From Bacillota bacterium (lineage in GTDB: Bacteria > Bacillota > Sulfobacillia > JABLXB01), in the NCBI GenBank assembly GCA_013178305.1, contig JABLXB010000002.1:248001-312000 (forward strand): a stretch of 64,000 nucleotides of DNA. Direction: 5' to 3'. The notes beneath the pieces are model-generated. The model was not told the DNA's origin and searched no databases. It was given only the letters and a program-made list of their open reading frames with translations. Below, piece by piece: positions 40,752 to 48,361 of the stretch; position 1 is the first letter of the stretch; every line of letters begins with the position of its first letter. The position numbers and the translations under genes are program-made.

Positions 40752-42584
40752 CTAGTGTGCTGGACTGTATGAAGGCAACTCTATGGAGCAGAGCACCCCC
40801 GCCGCCTCGTTGACTATGGAGATCCTTCCGCTGTGGTCCTCCACTATCCTCTTGCAGACGGCCAGGCCGAGGCCCGTCCCCGACGGTTTCGTGGAGAAGA
40901 ATGGTTCGAACACCCTCTCGATGTCCTCCCCGAGTATCCTGCTGCCCGAGTTCCGGACGCTCAGGCCCACCCTGCCGCGTTGGGGGTCAACCCATGTCTC
41001 AACATCTATGGAGCCCCCCGTCTTCACCGCTTCGAGGGCGTTCTTGACGACGTTGGTCACGACCTGCTGCAGGCGGCGCCGGTCCGCGAAGGCCTCGTCG
41101 CCGGGCGCAAGCCGGATGTTCACGACCACCCCTTTACGCGCGATCGCCGCCCTGTGGATCTCGACCACCTGCTGCGCTATCTCCCCGAGGCTCACCCGCT
41201 GCAACTCCAGGTTCGCGGGGGCCTGGAGGAACTTGAGGTCGCGCATGAGCGATTCAAGTCTCTCGAGTTCACGCACCGACAGCCGCAGGTACTCCAGCGC
41301 CTCACCATCTGCCGCGGCGAGACAAGAGAATAGACCCTGCTTTATCCTGTCGAGCGGCCCTGCAAGACGCGTCGACACGGCCTGGGCGACACTCCCCGCG
41401 ATGGCCAGCCGGCCGCTGCGCTTGAGTTCTTCCTCGAGGCGCTTCTGTTCGGTCACGTCCCTCACGATGATCGCCACGCCGCTTGCGACGCCATCGCCCG
41501 ACACCAGCGGGTATGCCGCTCCGGACATCATGCGCTTCCCCTCCGCAATCTCGATTGGGGTCCCGGTCAGGGCCCTGTCCGGCGCGGCCCCACCGGGCGG
41601 GGATCCGACGTGGTCCAGCGACAGACCATTTACGACTTGGTGTATTCGCCTGCCCACGACATCGGACTCCGTAACCGAAAACACGCGCTGAAGCATCCGG
41701 TTGAACGTCTCTATCCGGCCGTTCTTGCCCACGGAACAGACTCCGATCGGGACGCTGTCAAACGCCGCTCTGTAGGCCTGGGACTCCCTGGCCAGCCTTT
41801 TCTGTTCGTCCAGCACGTCGCCGCTTTCGAGGAAGATCGCGTACAGGAGGCTTATGGCGGCCATCAACCTGGAAACCCGCGACCACATGAGCGCCTGGGC
41901 GAACTTGCCGCTCCATACGACCGCGAGTTCTCCGACCGCGGCTATAGCCTGCGACATCGAAATCCTGCGATTGAGGCGCCCGCCCGCCCTCCAGCACAGC
42001 ACCGAGACAGCCGCCGAACCGGTCCCCGCAACGAGGCTCGACATGACCGGGCCGGTCAGCCGGTATTCCGCAACCATGCCGGCGCCCGGCGCCACGAGGT
42101 CCATTATGCCCGCGGAGCCCGCCGCCGAGAGCAGCGCCACGCCGACCGTCAACCCGACAAGCGATCCCTGACCAGCGCGCGGCGGCCGCCTCGCAAACGC
42201 GCTTCCGACAGTCATGAGCATGGAGAACGCAAGGGCGCCGGTCATCCCCGAGAATATGCGGACGTCCCCGAGGTCCCCGACGAGCAACAGGAGGGGGGCT
42301 ATGACCATCAGGAACGTCGCGGCTATGGTCGGTGACAGGTAGGCCATGCCCATCAGCAGCGCGGGTCCCTCTCCCCCCGCACGGTAGTACAGGTAGCCGA
42401 ACACCATTATCAGCACGGCCAGCACACCCGAGGCAAATTCCATGAGCAGGGACCAGTTCGCCTCGTGCACTTCCGGCGCCCGCCCACCGAGGGCGGCTAC
42501 CATCGCCAGCGCCGCAGGCAGAAGCACTGCCCAGTCGGGACTACCGCCCGCCTGCCGCCTCTCTTTTCCCGGCGACTCAATCAA
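40752..42584 (-). CDS. Membrane histidine kinase lacking the phospho-acceptor His (ATP domain intact)
   Basis: 610 residues from TTG 42584, overlapping the preceding kinase by 8 bases. The N-terminal 250 residues have about 7 membrane helices (MASE-like). PAS domain 265-380 (YRAAFDSVPIGVCSVGKNGR, AIIVRDVTEQKRLEEEL). In the dimerisation helix, GRLAIAGSVAQAVSTRLAGP aligns with the usual 'LAAGVAHEIRNPL', so the His is Thr405 and the next Glu is Arg406. The ATP domain keeps N515 (NVVKNALEAV), a G1 box with Asn545 (VRNSG, a common variant), FEPFFSTK and GTGLGL (569-574). It can presumably bind and use ATP but cannot phosphorylate itself. Confidence 0.88.
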   Translation of the reverse strand: MIESPGKERRQAGGSPDWAVLLPAALAMVAALGGRAPEVHEANWSLLMEFASGVLAVLIMVFGYLYYRAGGEGPALLMGMAYLSPTIAATFLMVIAPLLLLVGDLGDVRIFSGMTGALAFSMLMTVGSAFARRPPRAGQGSLVGLTVGVALLSAAGSAGIMDLVAPGAGMVAEYRLTGPVMSSLVAGTGSAAVSVLCWRAGGRLNRRISMSQAIAAVGELAVVWSGKFAQALMWSRVSRLMAAISLLYAIFLESGDVLDEQKRLARESQAYRAAFDSVPIGVCSVGKNGRIETFNRMLQRVFSVTESDVVGRRIHQVVNGLSLDHVGSPPGGAAPDRALTGTPIEIAEGKRMMSGAAYPLVSGDGVASGVAIIVRDVTEQKRLEEELKRSGRLAIAGSVAQAVSTRLAGPLDRIKQGLFSCLAAADGEALEYLRLSVRELERLESLMRDLKFLQAPANLELQRVSLGEIAQQVVEIHRAAIARKGVVVNIRLAPGDEAFADRRRLQQVVTNVVKNALEAVKTGGSIDVETWVDPQRGRVGLSVRNSGSRILGEDIERVFEPFFSTKPSGTGLGLAVCKRIVEDHSGRISIVNEAAGVLCSIELPSYSPAH

Positions 42585-44406
42585 CTGGTGGGACTCTCCG
42601 GGTCTGATCGTCGCCCACGTCGTCAGCCACCCCTCCCGGCGCCGGCGGCATCTTTATGAGTAGCGTAAAGCCCTTGTCGGCAGCCAGCGCTTCTACGCGC
42701 GCGCCGCATTCCTCGAGGAGCTTCTTACCCACCGAGAGGCCGAACCCCAGGTGCGCGCCTCTAATGGTGAACGCCGGATCGAAGACCGTTTCGACGCCAC
42801 CACCAGGGATTACAATCCCCGGGAACTCGAGCCTCAGCACCACCCACTCCTGCTCAGGCAGCGTGTCCGCCGTGACCGTGACCGACGCGCCCGCGGGCAG
42901 GGCCTCAGCCACGCCCCCGACGATGTTCACGAGGGCCTGCCGGAGCGCTTCCTCGTCGACCATCACGGGCCGGCTACGAGCGTCGCAGGTCCACTTCACA
43001 CCCCTCGAGGCGTATCGCCCCAGAAAGTCGGAGAGTACGGCCTCGATGAGTCCGCCGGCCTTGACCGGGCCGAGCACGGGCACCCTCGGCCGGACCAGCG
43101 ACAGGACCTGCGACACAACCATTTCAACCTCGTCTATGAGGCCCGCGCATGCCTGGATCGAACCGGCCATCCGGCGGGGGACCGTGGGAACCGCAAGGTG
43201 AAGAAGGCCCTTGATCGCGGCCAGGGGGTTCCTTATCTCGTGCGCCACCGAGGCTGCCAGGTGGCCTATCGACGCGAGTCGCTCGCCGGCCGCTACCCTC
43301 GCGGAGAGCTGCTTCCGATCGGTGAAGTCCTCGAGAACCACGACGGCGCCCTCGACCGCGCCGGCGCCCTTTCCGATCGGTCTTGCTGTAAGAGACCAGT
43401 ACCGCGGACCGGACGCGCACCGGACCTCGATCTCGGCGTCATGGTACTCCGTCCCCTGAGAGAGCACCTGTCCGATGAGGTCGAACTCTGCGGGTAGACG
43501 GCCGGCAAGATCACCGAGGCGCTGACCGAGGATTTCCGGCGCCGGAATACCTAGCAGGCGTTCCGCGGCCGGATTGTAGATCGTGACGGCACCGGACCCA
43601 TCCAGCAGCATGAAACCGCACGGAATCCGGTCAATGACCAGTCTCGACCTCCTGTTGTAATCGGCCACTTCGCGCTCGACCTGCATGAGGTTCATCACGT
43701 CCCATCCGGCGGACAGCAGGAGGAACACCGCGCCGAACGTGTTGACCAGGAAAGCCCCGCCGGGCGCGACGACTTTGAACGGGTTCACCTCGACCAGAAC
43801 GGACGTCCACCCGTACAAAGAGAATGTGACCGCCAGTCCGGTATCAAGTATGCTGTCCCGGGATACGTGCTCGTGAGAGGTCAGGAAGAACAGGATCGTG
43901 GCAATCGCTGGAGTAAACGGGAGCGGCGCGCCCAGCGACGACTCCACCGCCCCGAAGTCGACCGCTGCCCACGCGCGGCCGAGCATTATCGAAAAGGTGA
44001 CGACCATACCCGCTACCCACGGCGGGATTACTCGTTCACCGACCGATCTGCGGCTGCTCACGAAAACAAACGCCGCCAACCATAGCGACCTACCGTACCC
44101 ACCCTGGATCGGGTCAGTCAACTGATCCGATACCTGAATCATCGTCACGACCAGGAGTGAGGCGTATGCGGCCCCGAGCAACAACCTGCGGGCAGTCCTC
44201 TCAACGGAGTACCGGGTGAGGGCGAAGAGGGCGAACAGGCCTATGGAAACCAGTCCTGTAAAGCTGATGGGTGTGCGCCACGCCCGCGTAGACGGGATCC
44301 ACACGAATCCAACCAGGAGGGTCAGGCCGGCGCCAAGGCCCGTTGCGGCCCAGATCCAGAGGAATCGCTTAAGGTGTCTGGTTGCCTGCCTGGTCTGCGG
44401 TGACAT
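42577..44406 (-). CDS. Membrane histidine kinase with intact H-box but degenerate ATP domain
   Basis: 609 residues from ATG 44406 (GGGGGGAG upstream). About 7 membrane helices (15-235), PAS domain 250-365 (IDRIPCGFMLLDGSGAVTIY, AVVVLEDFTDRKQLSARVAA). The H-box is perfect: LASIGHLAASVAHEIRNPLA with H389. The catalytic domain is decayed: the N-box reads RQALVNIVGGVAEAL, with Gly498 where the Mg-binding Asn belongs. The G1 box reads LEFPGIVIPG (Phe528 for Asp, Gly-x-Gly lost) and the G2 box HLGFGLSVG. It should accept phosphate but not bind ATP normally. Complementary to the next gene. Confidence 0.88.
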   Translation of the reverse strand: MSPQTRQATRHLKRFLWIWAATGLGAGLTLLVGFVWIPSTRAWRTPISFTGLVSIGLFALFALTRYSVERTARRLLLGAAYASLLVVTMIQVSDQLTDPIQGGYGRSLWLAAFVFVSSRRSVGERVIPPWVAGMVVTFSIMLGRAWAAVDFGAVESSLGAPLPFTPAIATILFFLTSHEHVSRDSILDTGLAVTFSLYGWTSVLVEVNPFKVVAPGGAFLVNTFGAVFLLLSAGWDVMNLMQVEREVADYNRRSRLVIDRIPCGFMLLDGSGAVTIYNPAAERLLGIPAPEILGQRLGDLAGRLPAEFDLIGQVLSQGTEYHDAEIEVRCASGPRYWSLTARPIGKGAGAVEGAVVVLEDFTDRKQLSARVAAGERLASIGHLAASVAHEIRNPLAAIKGLLHLAVPTVPRRMAGSIQACAGLIDEVEMVVSQVLSLVRPRVPVLGPVKAGGLIEAVLSDFLGRYASRGVKWTCDARSRPVMVDEEALRQALVNIVGGVAEALPAGASVTVTADTLPEQEWVVLRLEFPGIVIPGGGVETVFDPAFTIRGAHLGFGLSVGKKLLEECGARVEALAADKGFTLLIKMPPAPGGVADDVGDDQTRRVPPVD

Positions 44407-44791
44407 CCGCTCCCCCCGGCGCGGACCCCCTGACCGCGTTCAGAACGACCGTAATGAGGTCCACAAGGTCGAAAGGCTTGTGAAGCACACCCACGACGGG
44501 CGCGGCGCCGATTGCGTCGAAGTCCGCCGTGTCATCAGTGCCGCTGATTACTATCACCGGAATGCGTCCCGACGGGTCCCACGTACTGCGCCTCTTGAGC
44601 ACCTCGATACCGTCGATGACCGGCATGCGCAGGTCCAGGAGGATCGCGTCTGGAGCCCCGGACGCCGCCACCGCCATGCATTCGGCTCCATCCTGCGCCG
44701 TGATGACCTCGAGCCCCTCCCTCTTGAGGGCGACCTCGATTACGAACCTTACTGCAGAGTCATCGTCGGCGACAAGGACCACTGACCTCAA
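44369..44791 (-). CDS. Single-domain response regulator (receiver only)
   Basis: 140 residues from TTG 44791; a GTG at 44824 would add 11 residues that do not fit the family. RSVVLVADDDSAVRFVIEVA gives the acidic pair D9/D10, the phospho-acceptor is D53 (ILLDLRMPVIDG), S83 (VIVISG) and K105 (VLHKPF). No output domain follows; the last 30 residues are flexible. It overlaps the kinase gene by 38 bases, so the three genes form one operon. It must act by protein interaction or relay to another protein. Confidence 0.9.
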   Translation of the reverse strand: MRSVVLVADDDSAVRFVIEVALKREGLEVITAQDGAECMAVAASGAPDAILLDLRMPVIDGIEVLKRRSTWDPSGRIPVIVISGTDDTADFDAIGAAPVVGVLHKPFDLVDLITVVLNAVRGSAPGGADVTADQAGNQTP

Positions 44792-44963
44792 ACCAGCACC
44801 CCCGGGATAGAAGTGACAGTCCACAGGCGGGCCTCATTACAGGCCGGGGCGATGAATATGATAGTGACTACTACACACCGCTAGAAATATCCTCCATTTG
44901 TCGAAGCGTGAAGCCCGTGCTCCATGAGCCACATACGCGGCGGGCGGGGCGGAGGAACGTGCG

Positions 44964-45962
44964 ATGGAGTTCGGATCCCTGTCGGACGCCGCCCGGGAGT
45001 CGGCCGCGACGGTTATCCGCGCGTGCCTCAAGGTGAAGGGCGGGGAACGGCTCACGATCGTGGCCGACCAGGGCGGCGAGGAGGTCGCGAAGGACATTTG
45101 GACCTTCTGCGCCGGCGAAGGCCTCGAACCGGCGCTCGTGTTGCCGGGTGGTTGGGCCCCCGGGGCGGACGAGCCACCCGCAGTCCTCGCGGGGTTCATG
45201 GCTGTCTCCGACGTGGTGATATGCGTTACTCCGCGGCCGGTGGCGCACACGCGCGCCCGTCGCGAGGCTTGTGAGAGAGGCGCGAGGGTCGCAATCCTCC
45301 CGGGTGTGACGAGGGACGGGTTCGAGAGCGAGGCGATGCGGACCGACTACGGCTACGTGTCCCGGCTGGCGGCTCACCTCGCGGGCCTCCTTACCCGCGC
45401 TCAACGGGTTTCTGTCGTGACCGGCGACTCCCACCTCGAGATGACGGTGGTGGGGCGCAAGGGATACGCAGATACGGGGGTAATCGACCTCCGCGGACGA
45501 GCGGGGGTGCTCCCCGGCGGCGAGGCATTCGTTGCGCCGCTCGAGGGCACGGCCGAGGGCGAAATCGTCGTGGATGGCTCTATTCCTGGGCGGGTACTCG
45601 AAACGCCCCTCTTGCTGAAGTTCCGCTCCGGGAGGCTGGTGTCAGCCGAAGGCGAGGCTGCCGGCGAATTCACCGGCATCCTGGAGGGCATCCCCGAGGC
45701 CAGGACCCTCGCGGAACTGGGGATTGGCTGCAACCCCGGGGCCGCTATCCGCGGAGCGCCTCCCGAAGACGAGAAGGTACTCGGCAGCGTGCATGTCGCG
45801 CTGGGCACCAATTCGACATTCGGGGGACTCGTATGGGCAGGTGCGCATGTCGACGCGGTGATACGCTCCCCCGACCTGTACCTCGACGATCTCCTCGTGG
45901 TTTCCGGAGGCCGGTTCGTGAACGACCCCGGGGAATCTGAAGTAGGAGAGGAATACGCATGA
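44964..45962 (+). CDS. M29-like (thermophilic-type) aminopeptidase family protein
   Basis: 332 residues. VIRACLKVKGGERLTIVADQ, GGEEVAKDIWTFC, RAGVLPGGEAFVAPLEGTAE and GEIVVDGSIP are the M29/leucyl-aminopeptidase pattern (the Gly-Glu of LPGGE and later E as metal ligands). ELGIGCNPGA, GSVHVALGTNSTFGG and GAHVDAVIRSPDLYLDD complete it. Somewhat shorter than typical M29 (about 370-410). Cytoplasmic peptide degradation, or a related unknown hydrolase. It is followed by the Rrf2 gene. Confidence 0.8.
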   Translation: MEFGSLSDAARESAATVIRACLKVKGGERLTIVADQGGEEVAKDIWTFCAGEGLEPALVLPGGWAPGADEPPAVLAGFMAVSDVVICVTPRPVAHTRARREACERGARVAILPGVTRDGFESEAMRTDYGYVSRLAAHLAGLLTRAQRVSVVTGDSHLEMTVVGRKGYADTGVIDLRGRAGVLPGGEAFVAPLEGTAEGEIVVDGSIPGRVLETPLLLKFRSGRLVSAEGEAAGEFTGILEGIPEARTLAELGIGCNPGAAIRGAPPEDEKVLGSVHVALGTNSTFGGLVWAGAHVDAVIRSPDLYLDDLLVVSGGRFVNDPGESEVGEEYA

Positions 45963-45996: not shown

Positions 45997-46022
45997 TATA
46001 ATGTGGACTGAATTACTCCACA
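45997..46022 (+). promoter_or_regulatory. Promoter -10 with overlapping Rrf2-type operator
   Basis: TATAAT at 45997-46002 is followed by TGTGGA (46002-46007), 9 bases, and TCCACA (46017-46022), a 21-bp inverted repeat. It begins at the last base of the -10 and lies just before the Rrf2 gene, so binding would block transcription. Autoregulation with the CooS-like gene is likely. No good -35 is seen. Confidence 0.7.
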
Positions 46023-46044: not shown

Positions 46045-46452
46045 ATGCAGCTTACGCGACAGGCAGAGTACGCGGTATGGATCATGCTCGAGCTGTCGCT
46101 CCAACCCACGAAAGGCTATCTGGCCGTGCACGAAATCGCAAACAGGTATGCGATCCCCATAGCATTCCTTCAGAAGACCGCGCGCCTCTTACTGAAGGCG
46201 GGTCTGCTCGAGGCGCAACGGGGGCCTCATGGGGGACTGCGCCTGAAGAAGGAGCCGTCGAGGGTCTCGCTTCTCGACATCATCACGGCGGTTGAGGGTG
46301 ACATAGCGCTGAATCCCTGTCTGCGAGCGGGCGCGCGCTGCCCGCGCATGAAAGCGTGCAAGGTGAGAGAAGCGCTCTCGAGGATCCAGGAAATGCTTGC
46401 GCGGGAACTCGCCTCCCACCGTCTGGACGACCTTGCGGGGGCTGAGCCATAA
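46045..46452 (+). CDS. Rrf2-family Fe-S transcription regulator (NsrR/IscR type)
   Basis: 135 residues. MQLTRQAEYAVWIMLELSLQ, VHEIANRYAIPIAFLQKTAR and GLLEAQRGPHGGLRLKKEPS are the Rrf2 winged helix, and the cluster site is C92, C99, C105 (NPCLRAGARCPRMKACKV), the usual three-Cys arrangement. It probably senses redox, iron or NO and represses its own operon through the palindrome at 46002. The stop is 26 bases before the CooS-like gene. Confidence 0.92.
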   Translation: MQLTRQAEYAVWIMLELSLQPTKGYLAVHEIANRYAIPIAFLQKTARLLLKAGLLEAQRGPHGGLRLKKEPSRVSLLDIITAVEGDIALNPCLRAGARCPRMKACKVREALSRIQEMLARELASHRLDDLAGAEP

Positions 46453-46477
46453 TACCAGTTCACAGGGAGGGGCCAGT

Positions 46478-48361
46478 ATGCTGGACAAAGTGAGTGTTCA
46501 CGAATCCATTAACGCGATGCACGACCACGTGAGGTCGGACGGCCTGAAGCCGATCGCGGACAGGTTTGACGAGCAGGAGAAGGTCAGGTGCAGGACATTC
46601 TGCGAGAGAGGGCTGAGCTGCCAGCTGTGCAGCAACGGGCCGTGCCGCATAATCCCGGGGAAGGTCGAGCGCGGGGTATGCGGGATCGACGGTAATGGTC
46701 TCGTGATGCGAAACCTGGTGCACAAGCTCAACATGGGCATTTCGGCGTACACCTATCACTGCAAGGAGGCCGCCAAGACCCTGCGCGCAACGGCGCTTGG
46801 TCGCACGCCTTTCACCATCAATGACCCGGGCAAGCTCGACTCGCTGGCGGCCTCGCTCGGAGTAGGCGGCGCGGACAGGGCCGCCAAAGCGGTGGCTGTG
46901 GCGGACACGGTCCTCGCGTCGATCAACCAGGACTCAGACGAGGCGTCGCTGATGGTCGAGAAGTTCGCCCCCGAGGGACGGAAGAACGTATGGCGGGAAT
47001 TGGGGATCCTGCCGGGCGGGCCGGCGCACGAGGTGATTGAATCTACCACGAGGTCTATGACCAACATCGACGGCGACTGGATTTCGCTAGCGAAGACCGG
47101 TCTCCGCCTCGGGATCGCCAGCACGTACGGCGCGCTCGTGCCGCTCGAGTGGATCCAGGACATACTGTTCGGCACCCCAACGCCTCACGAGGCGTTCGTC
47201 GACCTGGGGGTGCTCGACCCCGAGTTCGTGAACATACTGCCAAACGGCCACGAGCCGTTCATCGGGGCGGCGCTGATAGAGGTGGCGAAGAGGCCCGAAA
47301 ACCGGGAAAAGGCGCGGATGGCCGGGGCGAAGGGCATCCACGTGGTGGGCTCGATCGAGACCGGCCAGGAGCTCATGCAGCGGTTCCAGTGCGACGACGT
47401 GTTCGTGGGTCTCACGGGTAACTGGATGAACCAGGAGTACGTCCTGGCCACTGGCGCGGTCGACCTGTTCGCCATGGACATGAACTGCTCGGTGCAGACG
47501 CTCAAGGAGTTCGCGGACAGGTACGGCGCCACGCTCGTCTCGGTATCGAGGCTCGTGAACATCACCGGCGTCCCGAAACACATCGACTATCAGCCGGAGA
47601 AGGTCGACGCTCAGGCACAGAAGCTCATCGACCTCGCTATCGAGAACTTCGGCAGGCGGCGCGGCAGGCCGGCGAGGACAGGGTTCCCGCGCAGGAAGAT
47701 CGTCACCGGGTTTTCGACCGAGGCGGTCCTGCAGGCGCTCGGAGGGACGCTCGACCCGCTCCTCGGCGCTATCAAGGACGGTTCGGTCAAGGGCGTTGTC
47801 GCGCTGGTCAGCTGCACCACCTTCAAGAACGGCGCCCACGACGAGATAACCGTCGCGGTGGCGAAAGAACTCATCAAGCGGAACATGCTCGTCATATCGG
47901 GCGGCTGCGGGAACGCCGCCTGCCAGGTGGCGGGCCTGAACTCCATGGAGGCCCAGGAACTGGCGGGCGAACGGCTGCGCGGCCTGTGCAAGGCGCTTGG
48001 AGTACCGCCCGTGCTGTCGTTCGGCACCTGCACAGACGTCGGGCGCATGGCGATGCTCGTCGGCGCTGTGGCGGGCGCGCTGGGTGTCGACACGCCCGCG
48101 CTTCCCGTCGCCGTGACTGCGCCCCAGTACATGGAACAGAAGGCGACGATCGATGCGTTCGGAGCCGTGGCGCTCGGACTGTACACCCATGTCTCCCCGG
48201 TCCCTCCGGTCACCGGGTCCGAGGACGTGGTGAGGCTACTTACCAGGGACGTCGAGGCGCTCACGGGTGGGAAACTCGCCGTCGAATCCGATCCGGTCGC
48301 GGCCGTCGACGGGATCGAGGCGCACGTAAACTCGAAGAGGAAGTCACTCGGGCTGGACTGA
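46478..48361 (+). CDS. CooS-like CODH homologue with altered C-cluster (hybrid-cluster type)
   Basis: 627 residues from ATG 46478 (GGGAGG upstream; the open frame begins earlier). The B-cluster Cys set is present (C48, C51, C56, C68), and C38/C42 could hold a D-cluster, though Ser47 replaces one usual Cys. C-cluster ligands H258, C337, C446, C477 and C518 are kept, but the motif GICCTGNE reads GSIETGQE (291-298), putting Glu294 where the Cys ligand belongs. Such deviant CODHs (CooS-V of Carboxydothermus) carry an Fe-S-O hybrid cluster and do not oxidise CO. The Rrf2 neighbour suits a stress enzyme. Confidence 0.9.
   Translation: MLDKVSVHESINAMHDHVRSDGLKPIADRFDEQEKVRCRTFCERGLSCQLCSNGPCRIIPGKVERGVCGIDGNGLVMRNLVHKLNMGISAYTYHCKEAAKTLRATALGRTPFTINDPGKLDSLAASLGVGGADRAAKAVAVADTVLASINQDSDEASLMVEKFAPEGRKNVWRELGILPGGPAHEVIESTTRSMTNIDGDWISLAKTGLRLGIASTYGALVPLEWIQDILFGTPTPHEAFVDLGVLDPEFVNILPNGHEPFIGAALIEVAKRPENREKARMAGAKGIHVVGSIETGQELMQRFQCDDVFVGLTGNWMNQEYVLATGAVDLFAMDMNCSVQTLKEFADRYGATLVSVSRLVNITGVPKHIDYQPEKVDAQAQKLIDLAIENFGRRRGRPARTGFPRRKIVTGFSTEAVLQALGGTLDPLLGAIKDGSVKGVVALVSCTTFKNGAHDEITVAVAKELIKRNMLVISGGCGNAACQVAGLNSMEAQELAGERLRGLCKALGVPPVLSFGTCTDVGRMAMLVGAVAGALGVDTPALPVAVTAPQYMEQKATIDAFGAVALGLYTHVSPVPPVTGSEDVVRLLTRDVEALTGGKLAVESDPVAAVDGIEAHVNSKRKSLGLD

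Follow-up and report, generated by a model that had tools for sequence, protein, structure and literature searches.

Does a gene that automatic annotation would label as a CO dehydrogenase (CODH) tell of CO metabolism in its host when a catalytic cysteine has become a glutamate? The question is raised by a cooS-V-like gene at 46478..48361 (+ strand) of a 64,000-nucleotide stretch of a Bacillota genome, the whole of which we call the window. A first-pass annotation, made from the sequence alone, had proposed an Fe-S-O hybrid-cluster enzyme with a role in stress. We describe the ligands of the protein, the regulator encoded beside it and the gene content of its genome, and from these judge that it is probably an HCP-like hybrid-cluster reductase of the CooS-V kind, encoded in an Rrf2-controlled stress operon.

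Protein class and cluster ligands

The gene encodes 627 amino acids of the Prismane/CODH family, and its ATG at 46478 is preceded by a good ribosome-binding site (GGGAGGGG, 46465-46472, + strand); the open reading frame, coordinates and residue numbers of the first-pass annotation were all correct on re-checking. Automatic annotation would indeed say CODH, as had been foreseen. The protein scores 476 bits against the Pfam Prismane model and 766 bits against the NCBIfam CODH equivalog TIGR01702 (cut-off 478), and only 42.9 bits against the HCP equivalog TIGR01703, whose cut-off is 360.8. By sequence its best match among solved structures is CooS-V of Carboxydothermus hydrogenoformans (7b7q; 737 bits, with the runner-up at 409), to which it is 54% identical over the full length. 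CooS-V also ranks first in the fold comparison of an AlphaFold2 model (pLDDT 87.9, pTM 0.90), with a TM score of 0.97 and an rmsd of 1.4 Å, the Ni-CODHs reaching at most 0.95. Sequence match, fold, ligand positions and tree all bear out the earlier assignment to the CooS-V kind: the protein is a member of the known structural group D-1, and the kind of enzyme is not new.

Alignment confirms the motif GSIETGQE at residues 291-298, in which Glu294 (codon 47357..47359, + strand) takes the place of a C-cluster cysteine (Cys295 of CODH-II; Glu295 of CooS-V). Glu294 aligns with the second cysteine of CCTGNE in CODH-IV, the D. vulgaris enzyme and the Thermococcus enzyme, and no cysteine of the window protein stands near the ligand position, the nearest, C305, being 11 residues off. 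The complete C-cluster set of a Ni-Fe CODH (His and five Cys) was thus not found in this protein, one Cys being Glu294. Glutamate at this position is invariant in all of the approximately 60 D-1 relatives aligned, so Glu294 is not a chance substitution. The ligands that the first-pass annotation had listed as kept (H258, C337, C446, C477 and C518) each align with a remaining C-cluster ligand. It had overlooked Glu553, Tyr91 and the pair C38 and C42. Glu553 (codon 48134..48136, + strand; motif YMEQK, continuing as YMEQKA) corresponds to Glu556 of CooS-V, the second carboxylate ligand of the hybrid cluster, and to Glu494 of HCP, while Tyr91 occupies the position of the acid-base His. Judged from the alignment, C38-X3-C42 (46589..46603, + strand) are the presumed ligands of the subunit-bridging cluster, a type III D-cluster pair (the D-1 type, with an extra Cys and a bridging [2Fe-2S]) with one more spacer residue than the CX2C of CooS-V; C48, C51, C56 and C68 (46619..46681, + strand) form the [4Fe-4S] B-cluster motif. 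The active-site positions of CooS-V, taken from PMC9311411, are all kept; in window/CooS-V numbering they are His258/259 (codon 47249..47251, + strand), Glu294/295, Asn336/337, Cys337/338, Cys446/449, Cys477/480, Cys518/521 and Glu553/556.

The window protein therefore resembles CooS-V (7B7Q; group D-1, clade D) in its fold, both Glu ligands, the Tyr and the B-cluster motif, and differs from it in the CX3C motif, in falling into a separate subclade, in having an Rrf2 operon partner and in the lack of any other CODH in its genome. D-1 proteins share catalytic-site residues with HCP (prismane; classes I and III), as published (PMC6344411), although the window protein, unlike HCP, has a CODH-type length and the B-cluster motif and fails TIGR01703. 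The CX3C spacing is the only deviation from CooS-V that we noted; it is common to L002, L018 and Methanomethylicia archaea. We rejected it as the mark of a single lineage, since these and the window protein have it but their sisters lack it, a patchy distribution.

One quick FastTree of 73 sequences supplies the phylogenetic placement that the first-pass annotation had called for: the window protein falls in D-1 (support 0.957), inside the CooS-V clade of CooS-type proteins. Its subclade holds L002, L018 (a Schekmanbacteria MAG), G413, G061, G375, G180, G236, G354, G108, G331, G013 and L013 (an Armatimonadota MAG), and the sister of this subclade is a group in which CooS-V stands with archaeal D-1 proteins and many others from the window's phylum. 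Three CooS proteins (L019, L045 and L049) branch outside; these keep the cysteine (GSMC[TS]GQE) but already have the Glu of the EQK motif (LEQK), which suggests, as far as an order can be read from a single quick tree, that the EQK Glu predates the Cys-to-Glu change. They possibly represent an evolutionary step before CooS-V. In a Methanomethylicota MAG the cooS-V gene is split into two open reading frames of 278 and 347 amino acids (L023:5959-7877), by decay or assembly error.

The Rrf2 partner and its likeness to hcp loci

Directly upstream of cooS, ending 25 bp before it, lies a gene for an Rrf2-family regulator of 135 amino acids (46045..46452, + strand; family models and profile search) with the cysteines C92-X6-C99-X5-C105. 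Only the Rrf2 superfamily model of NCBIfam passes its cut-off for this protein. The NsrR and IscR equivalogs stay below theirs (45 of 182 and 64 of 207.55), the best sub-cut-off scores being those of suf_reg, RirA and IscR, with NsrR lower. The spacing usual in IscR and NsrR is CX5CX5C, which differs from the CX6CX5C found here.

The regulator gene is a real partner of cooS. An Rrf2 gene is directly upstream on the same strand in all seven sister-group D-1 loci (L086, L087, L088 and L090-L093), and the whole genome of the window has only three Rrf2 genes above cut-off, so that a chance position beside cooS is unlikely. What had been a hint in the first-pass annotation, the upstream Rrf2 gene as a sign of a stress role, has become a much stronger argument through these seven loci, the hcp-linked relatives and the palindrome described below. 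The link is established for the window-type subclade only: an adjacent Rrf2 gene was seen in none of 30 loci on the CooS-V side (L084, L089, L094-L101 and L103-L123), some of which end near a contig edge, and L108 alone among them has any Rrf2 gene, several kb distant. The window regulator shares only approximately 33% identity with its sister-group counterparts, so the two pairings may be separate in origin.

Some clade C cooS genes of termite-gut treponemes and clostridia likewise have an Rrf2 gene upstream (PMC3082573), and so an Rrf2 gene beside cooS does not by itself imply HCP-like chemistry. Unlike the window gene, clade C CooS has CooF and NAD/FAD oxidoreductase partners and lacks the D-1 Glu ligand.

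A closer likeness is to hcp, of which we compared 20 loci from related genomes. In these, hcp is preceded by an Rrf2 gene in G001, G015, G004, G057 and G234 and followed by one in G007 and G048. The spacing CX6CX5C (or CX6CX4C) is common to the cooS-linked and hcp-linked Rrf2 proteins examined, whereas a wider Cys spacing is seen in almost every other Rrf2 protein that these genomes encode (G108_C9 is an exception). A tree of the regulators groups the sister-group proteins with the hcp-linked regulators of G001 and G015 (support 0.974) and places the window regulator with its hcp-linked counterpart in G234 (0.872). A profile built from the window and G234 regulators was searched against 398 genomes of the phylum; among its 19 best matches outside the window's genome, 13 immediately precede a co-directional hcp gene and a further one is a partial case, the inclusion of G234 biasing the search toward that type.

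An operator-like palindrome, TGTGGACTGAATTACTCCACA (46002..46022), of the form TGTGGA-N9-TCCACA precedes the window regulator gene, and a -10-like TATAAT (45997..46002, + strand) abuts it with no clear -35; the latter was read from the sequence, and the promoter scan did not list it. The hcp-linked Rrf2 gene of G234, a genome of another family, is preceded by TGTGGATATAATATATCCACA, with the same TGTGGA-N9-TCCACA at the same distance (positions -43 and -44 for the two Rrf2 genes). The perfect form occurs once in each of the two genomes and in none of 100 shuffles of the window. Related forms are AGTGGA-N9-TCCACT at G380 (-40) and G245 (-36). In all seven sister loci a promoter of the TTGACA-TAAAAT type is overlain by a different palindrome, AGGACTAAAATAGTCCT or one nearly identical to it; the G015 hcp locus has TGGACCATAATGGTCTTG, with one mismatch to the searched pattern, and the G001 hcp locus a weaker form. 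Palindromes are therefore common to cooS and hcp loci, and as patterns they are candidate operators. A wider regulon was rejected, with one perfect palindrome in the genome and one-mismatch copies at no more than approximately twice the reversed control.

The third shared element is a ferredoxin family. Its members adjoin eight window-type cooS genes (L002, L018, L085, L086, L088, L090, L091 and L092) and precede hcp in five loci, with the order Rrf2-ferredoxin-hcp in L131. The ferredoxin gene of the window's genome is unlinked to cooS, approximately 98 kb away (L178; contig C2, approximately 392.7 kb, outside the window). The encoded protein, FrdX-like and 65% identical to the cooS neighbour in L091, is a possible unlinked electron donor, and a co-directional Crp/Fnr-like gene lies shortly before its gene. 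A Crp/Fnr-family regulator also occurs near cooS and the ferredoxin gene in L085, and in G375 an AAA ATPase gene and a P-loop-like gene directly 3′ of Rrf2-cooS replace the ferredoxin gene (L087:5167-6771).

In clostridia and delta-proteobacteria hcp occurs with the ferredoxin-like frdX, and it is under NsrR or HcpR control (PMC1274295). The cooS loci resemble such systems in pairing an iron-sulfur enzyme with a regulator of its own and, in relatives, with a ferredoxin-like protein, and resemble the hcp loci of related genomes in Rrf2 type, palindrome and ferredoxin family. They differ in that the enzyme is CODH-derived and the palindrome is neither the NsrR consensus ATGyAT-N5-ATrCAT nor the HcpR motif. 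We found no report of a regulator type and palindrome common to hcp and cooS in the open-licence literature searched.

Two other neighbours were set aside. A gene for an M29/NicX-like protein of 332 amino acids (44964-45962, + strand; weak match to the 2,5-dihydroxypyridine dioxygenase 7cn3) has homologues directly 3′ of cooS-V in Methanomethylicia (Methanosuratincola-type) archaea. As a conserved pair this is probably coincidental: the genome has eight matches to the family, the proteins are 21-29% identical, and the palindrome sits between the M29/NicX-like gene and Rrf2. Three consecutive genes by the cooS region (40752-44824, - strand) encode a response regulator and two PAS histidine kinases. 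The D-1 cooS genes of L018 and of several archaeal loci also have histidine kinase genes as neighbours; the family is a common one, with no conserved position.

Genome content and rival readings

In the window's genome (3.37 Mb, 97.7% complete) the D-1 cooS is the sole PF03063 gene, and no HCP, acetyl-CoA synthase (ACS, PF03598) or second CODH gene was found. The first-pass annotation's point that CO-related genes are absent nearby thus extends from the neighbours of cooS, none of which is CO-related, to the whole genome as regards a second CODH or ACS. Among 60 D-1 genomes checked, D-1 is the only PF03063 gene in eight that are at least 92% complete (G413, G061, G375, G108, G331, G146, G123 and G195); seven of these also lack PF03598, G413 having a partial match, and in single cases missing contigs could hide genes. 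At least seven further D-1 genomes thus resemble the window's in having neither another CODH nor HCP nor ACS. In G180, G236 and G354, CODH and ACS are present in addition to D-1. The occurrence of D-1 without any other CODH contradicts a statement published by Jeoung et al., which fails in this sample; it is a matter of distribution and not a defining trait of the enzyme. No HCP-sized match was found in the 10 genomes of the closest group, and G001, a member of the window's family, carries Rrf2-hcp and lacks D-1.

CooS-V itself has no CO chemistry, contains no Ni and holds a morphing Fe-S-O cluster that rearranges from [4Fe-3S] to [4Fe-2S-S*-2O-2(H2O)], with a channel that is open only in the reduced state; it reduces hydroxylamine slowly (kcat/KM 20 per M per s, kcat 0.13 per s), and NO reduction was assayed and not detected (PMC9311411). 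The window protein, whose ligands are identical, is expected to share this chemistry. That it should be a working Ni-Fe CODH in spite of the Cys-to-Glu change is very improbable. The TIGR01702 score speaks for it, as does a genetic study that, in the account given by PMC6344411, hints at CO oxidation by D-1 in M. acetivorans; but CooS-V with these ligands has neither Ni nor CO activity, the C295E change in CODH-II abolishes or greatly lowers CO oxidation, and the genome has no CODH partner, ACS or second CODH.

More weight, though still small, goes to a hybrid-cluster protein that, instead of detoxifying by reduction, acts as a redox sensor or a very-low-potential electron sink, with lower potentials and a gated channel that serve another substrate. 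The potentials of CooS-V are approximately 300 mV below those of E. coli HCP, a gap that led the authors of the CooS-V work to suggest that the two differ in physiological role, and the hydroxylamine turnover of CooS-V is slow. A large eLife survey, in which clade D showed no clear gene-context pattern and 64% had no operon neighbours, proposes a redox-sensing role for that clade. We consider this unlikely for the window enzyme, given that its subclade carries an hcp-type regulator, operator-like palindrome and ferredoxin family, and that none of the 10 closest genomes has HCP. There is a lesser but appreciable chance that the Rrf2 protein senses iron or Fe-S status in the manner of IscR or RirA, and not NO, the enzyme being made under iron or oxidative stress. 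No NCBIfam equivalog exceeds its cut-off, suf_reg, RirA and IscR score above NsrR, and the cysteine spacing differs from the usual one of IscR and NsrR; against this, the closest Rrf2 relatives precede hcp, a nitrosative-stress gene in studied systems. The regulatory features, which put the gene in the place that hcp has in related genomes, favour a reductase for a nitrosative or related stress compound.

Proposed mechanism and meaning

For the window system we infer the stress role, cluster type, electron donor, repression mechanism, inducer and substrate as follows. The protein would be a homodimer of the CODH fold and CooS-V (D-1) kind, in which Glu294 and Glu553, replacing or adding to C-cluster ligands, would give a redox-restructuring [4Fe-3S-nO] hybrid cluster that is free of nickel and stands in for the Ni-Fe cluster; with such a cluster, no action on CO is predicted. 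Electrons from a low-potential donor, probably a ferredoxin of the kind adjoining cooS in relatives, would pass through the bridging (C38/C42) cluster and the B cluster to the hybrid cluster, which would reduce a small nitrogen- or oxygen-containing stress compound. Rrf2 and cooS would make up a single operon. The regulator, whose CX6CX5C site probably marks it as an Fe-S sensor, would bind TGTGGA-N9-TCCACA over its own promoter and leave it under nitrosative or related stress. The window enzyme would thereby do the job that hcp does in relatives, including a genome of the same family.

More tentatively, and with slightly more doubt than belief, we propose that in the window subclade a CODH-derived hybrid-cluster enzyme took over the hcp regulatory unit (Rrf2 type and operator), hcp itself being absent. 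Such genomes also warn against reading CO metabolism from a CODH label. CooS-V-type proteins have a solved structure and lack an assigned role, and a subclade with a regulator, a palindrome and no other CODH or HCP gives a direct handle on it. If the replacement is true, hybrid-cluster enzymes of two independent origins would be able to replace each other in the cell, and CooS-V-type proteins would have a physiological role.
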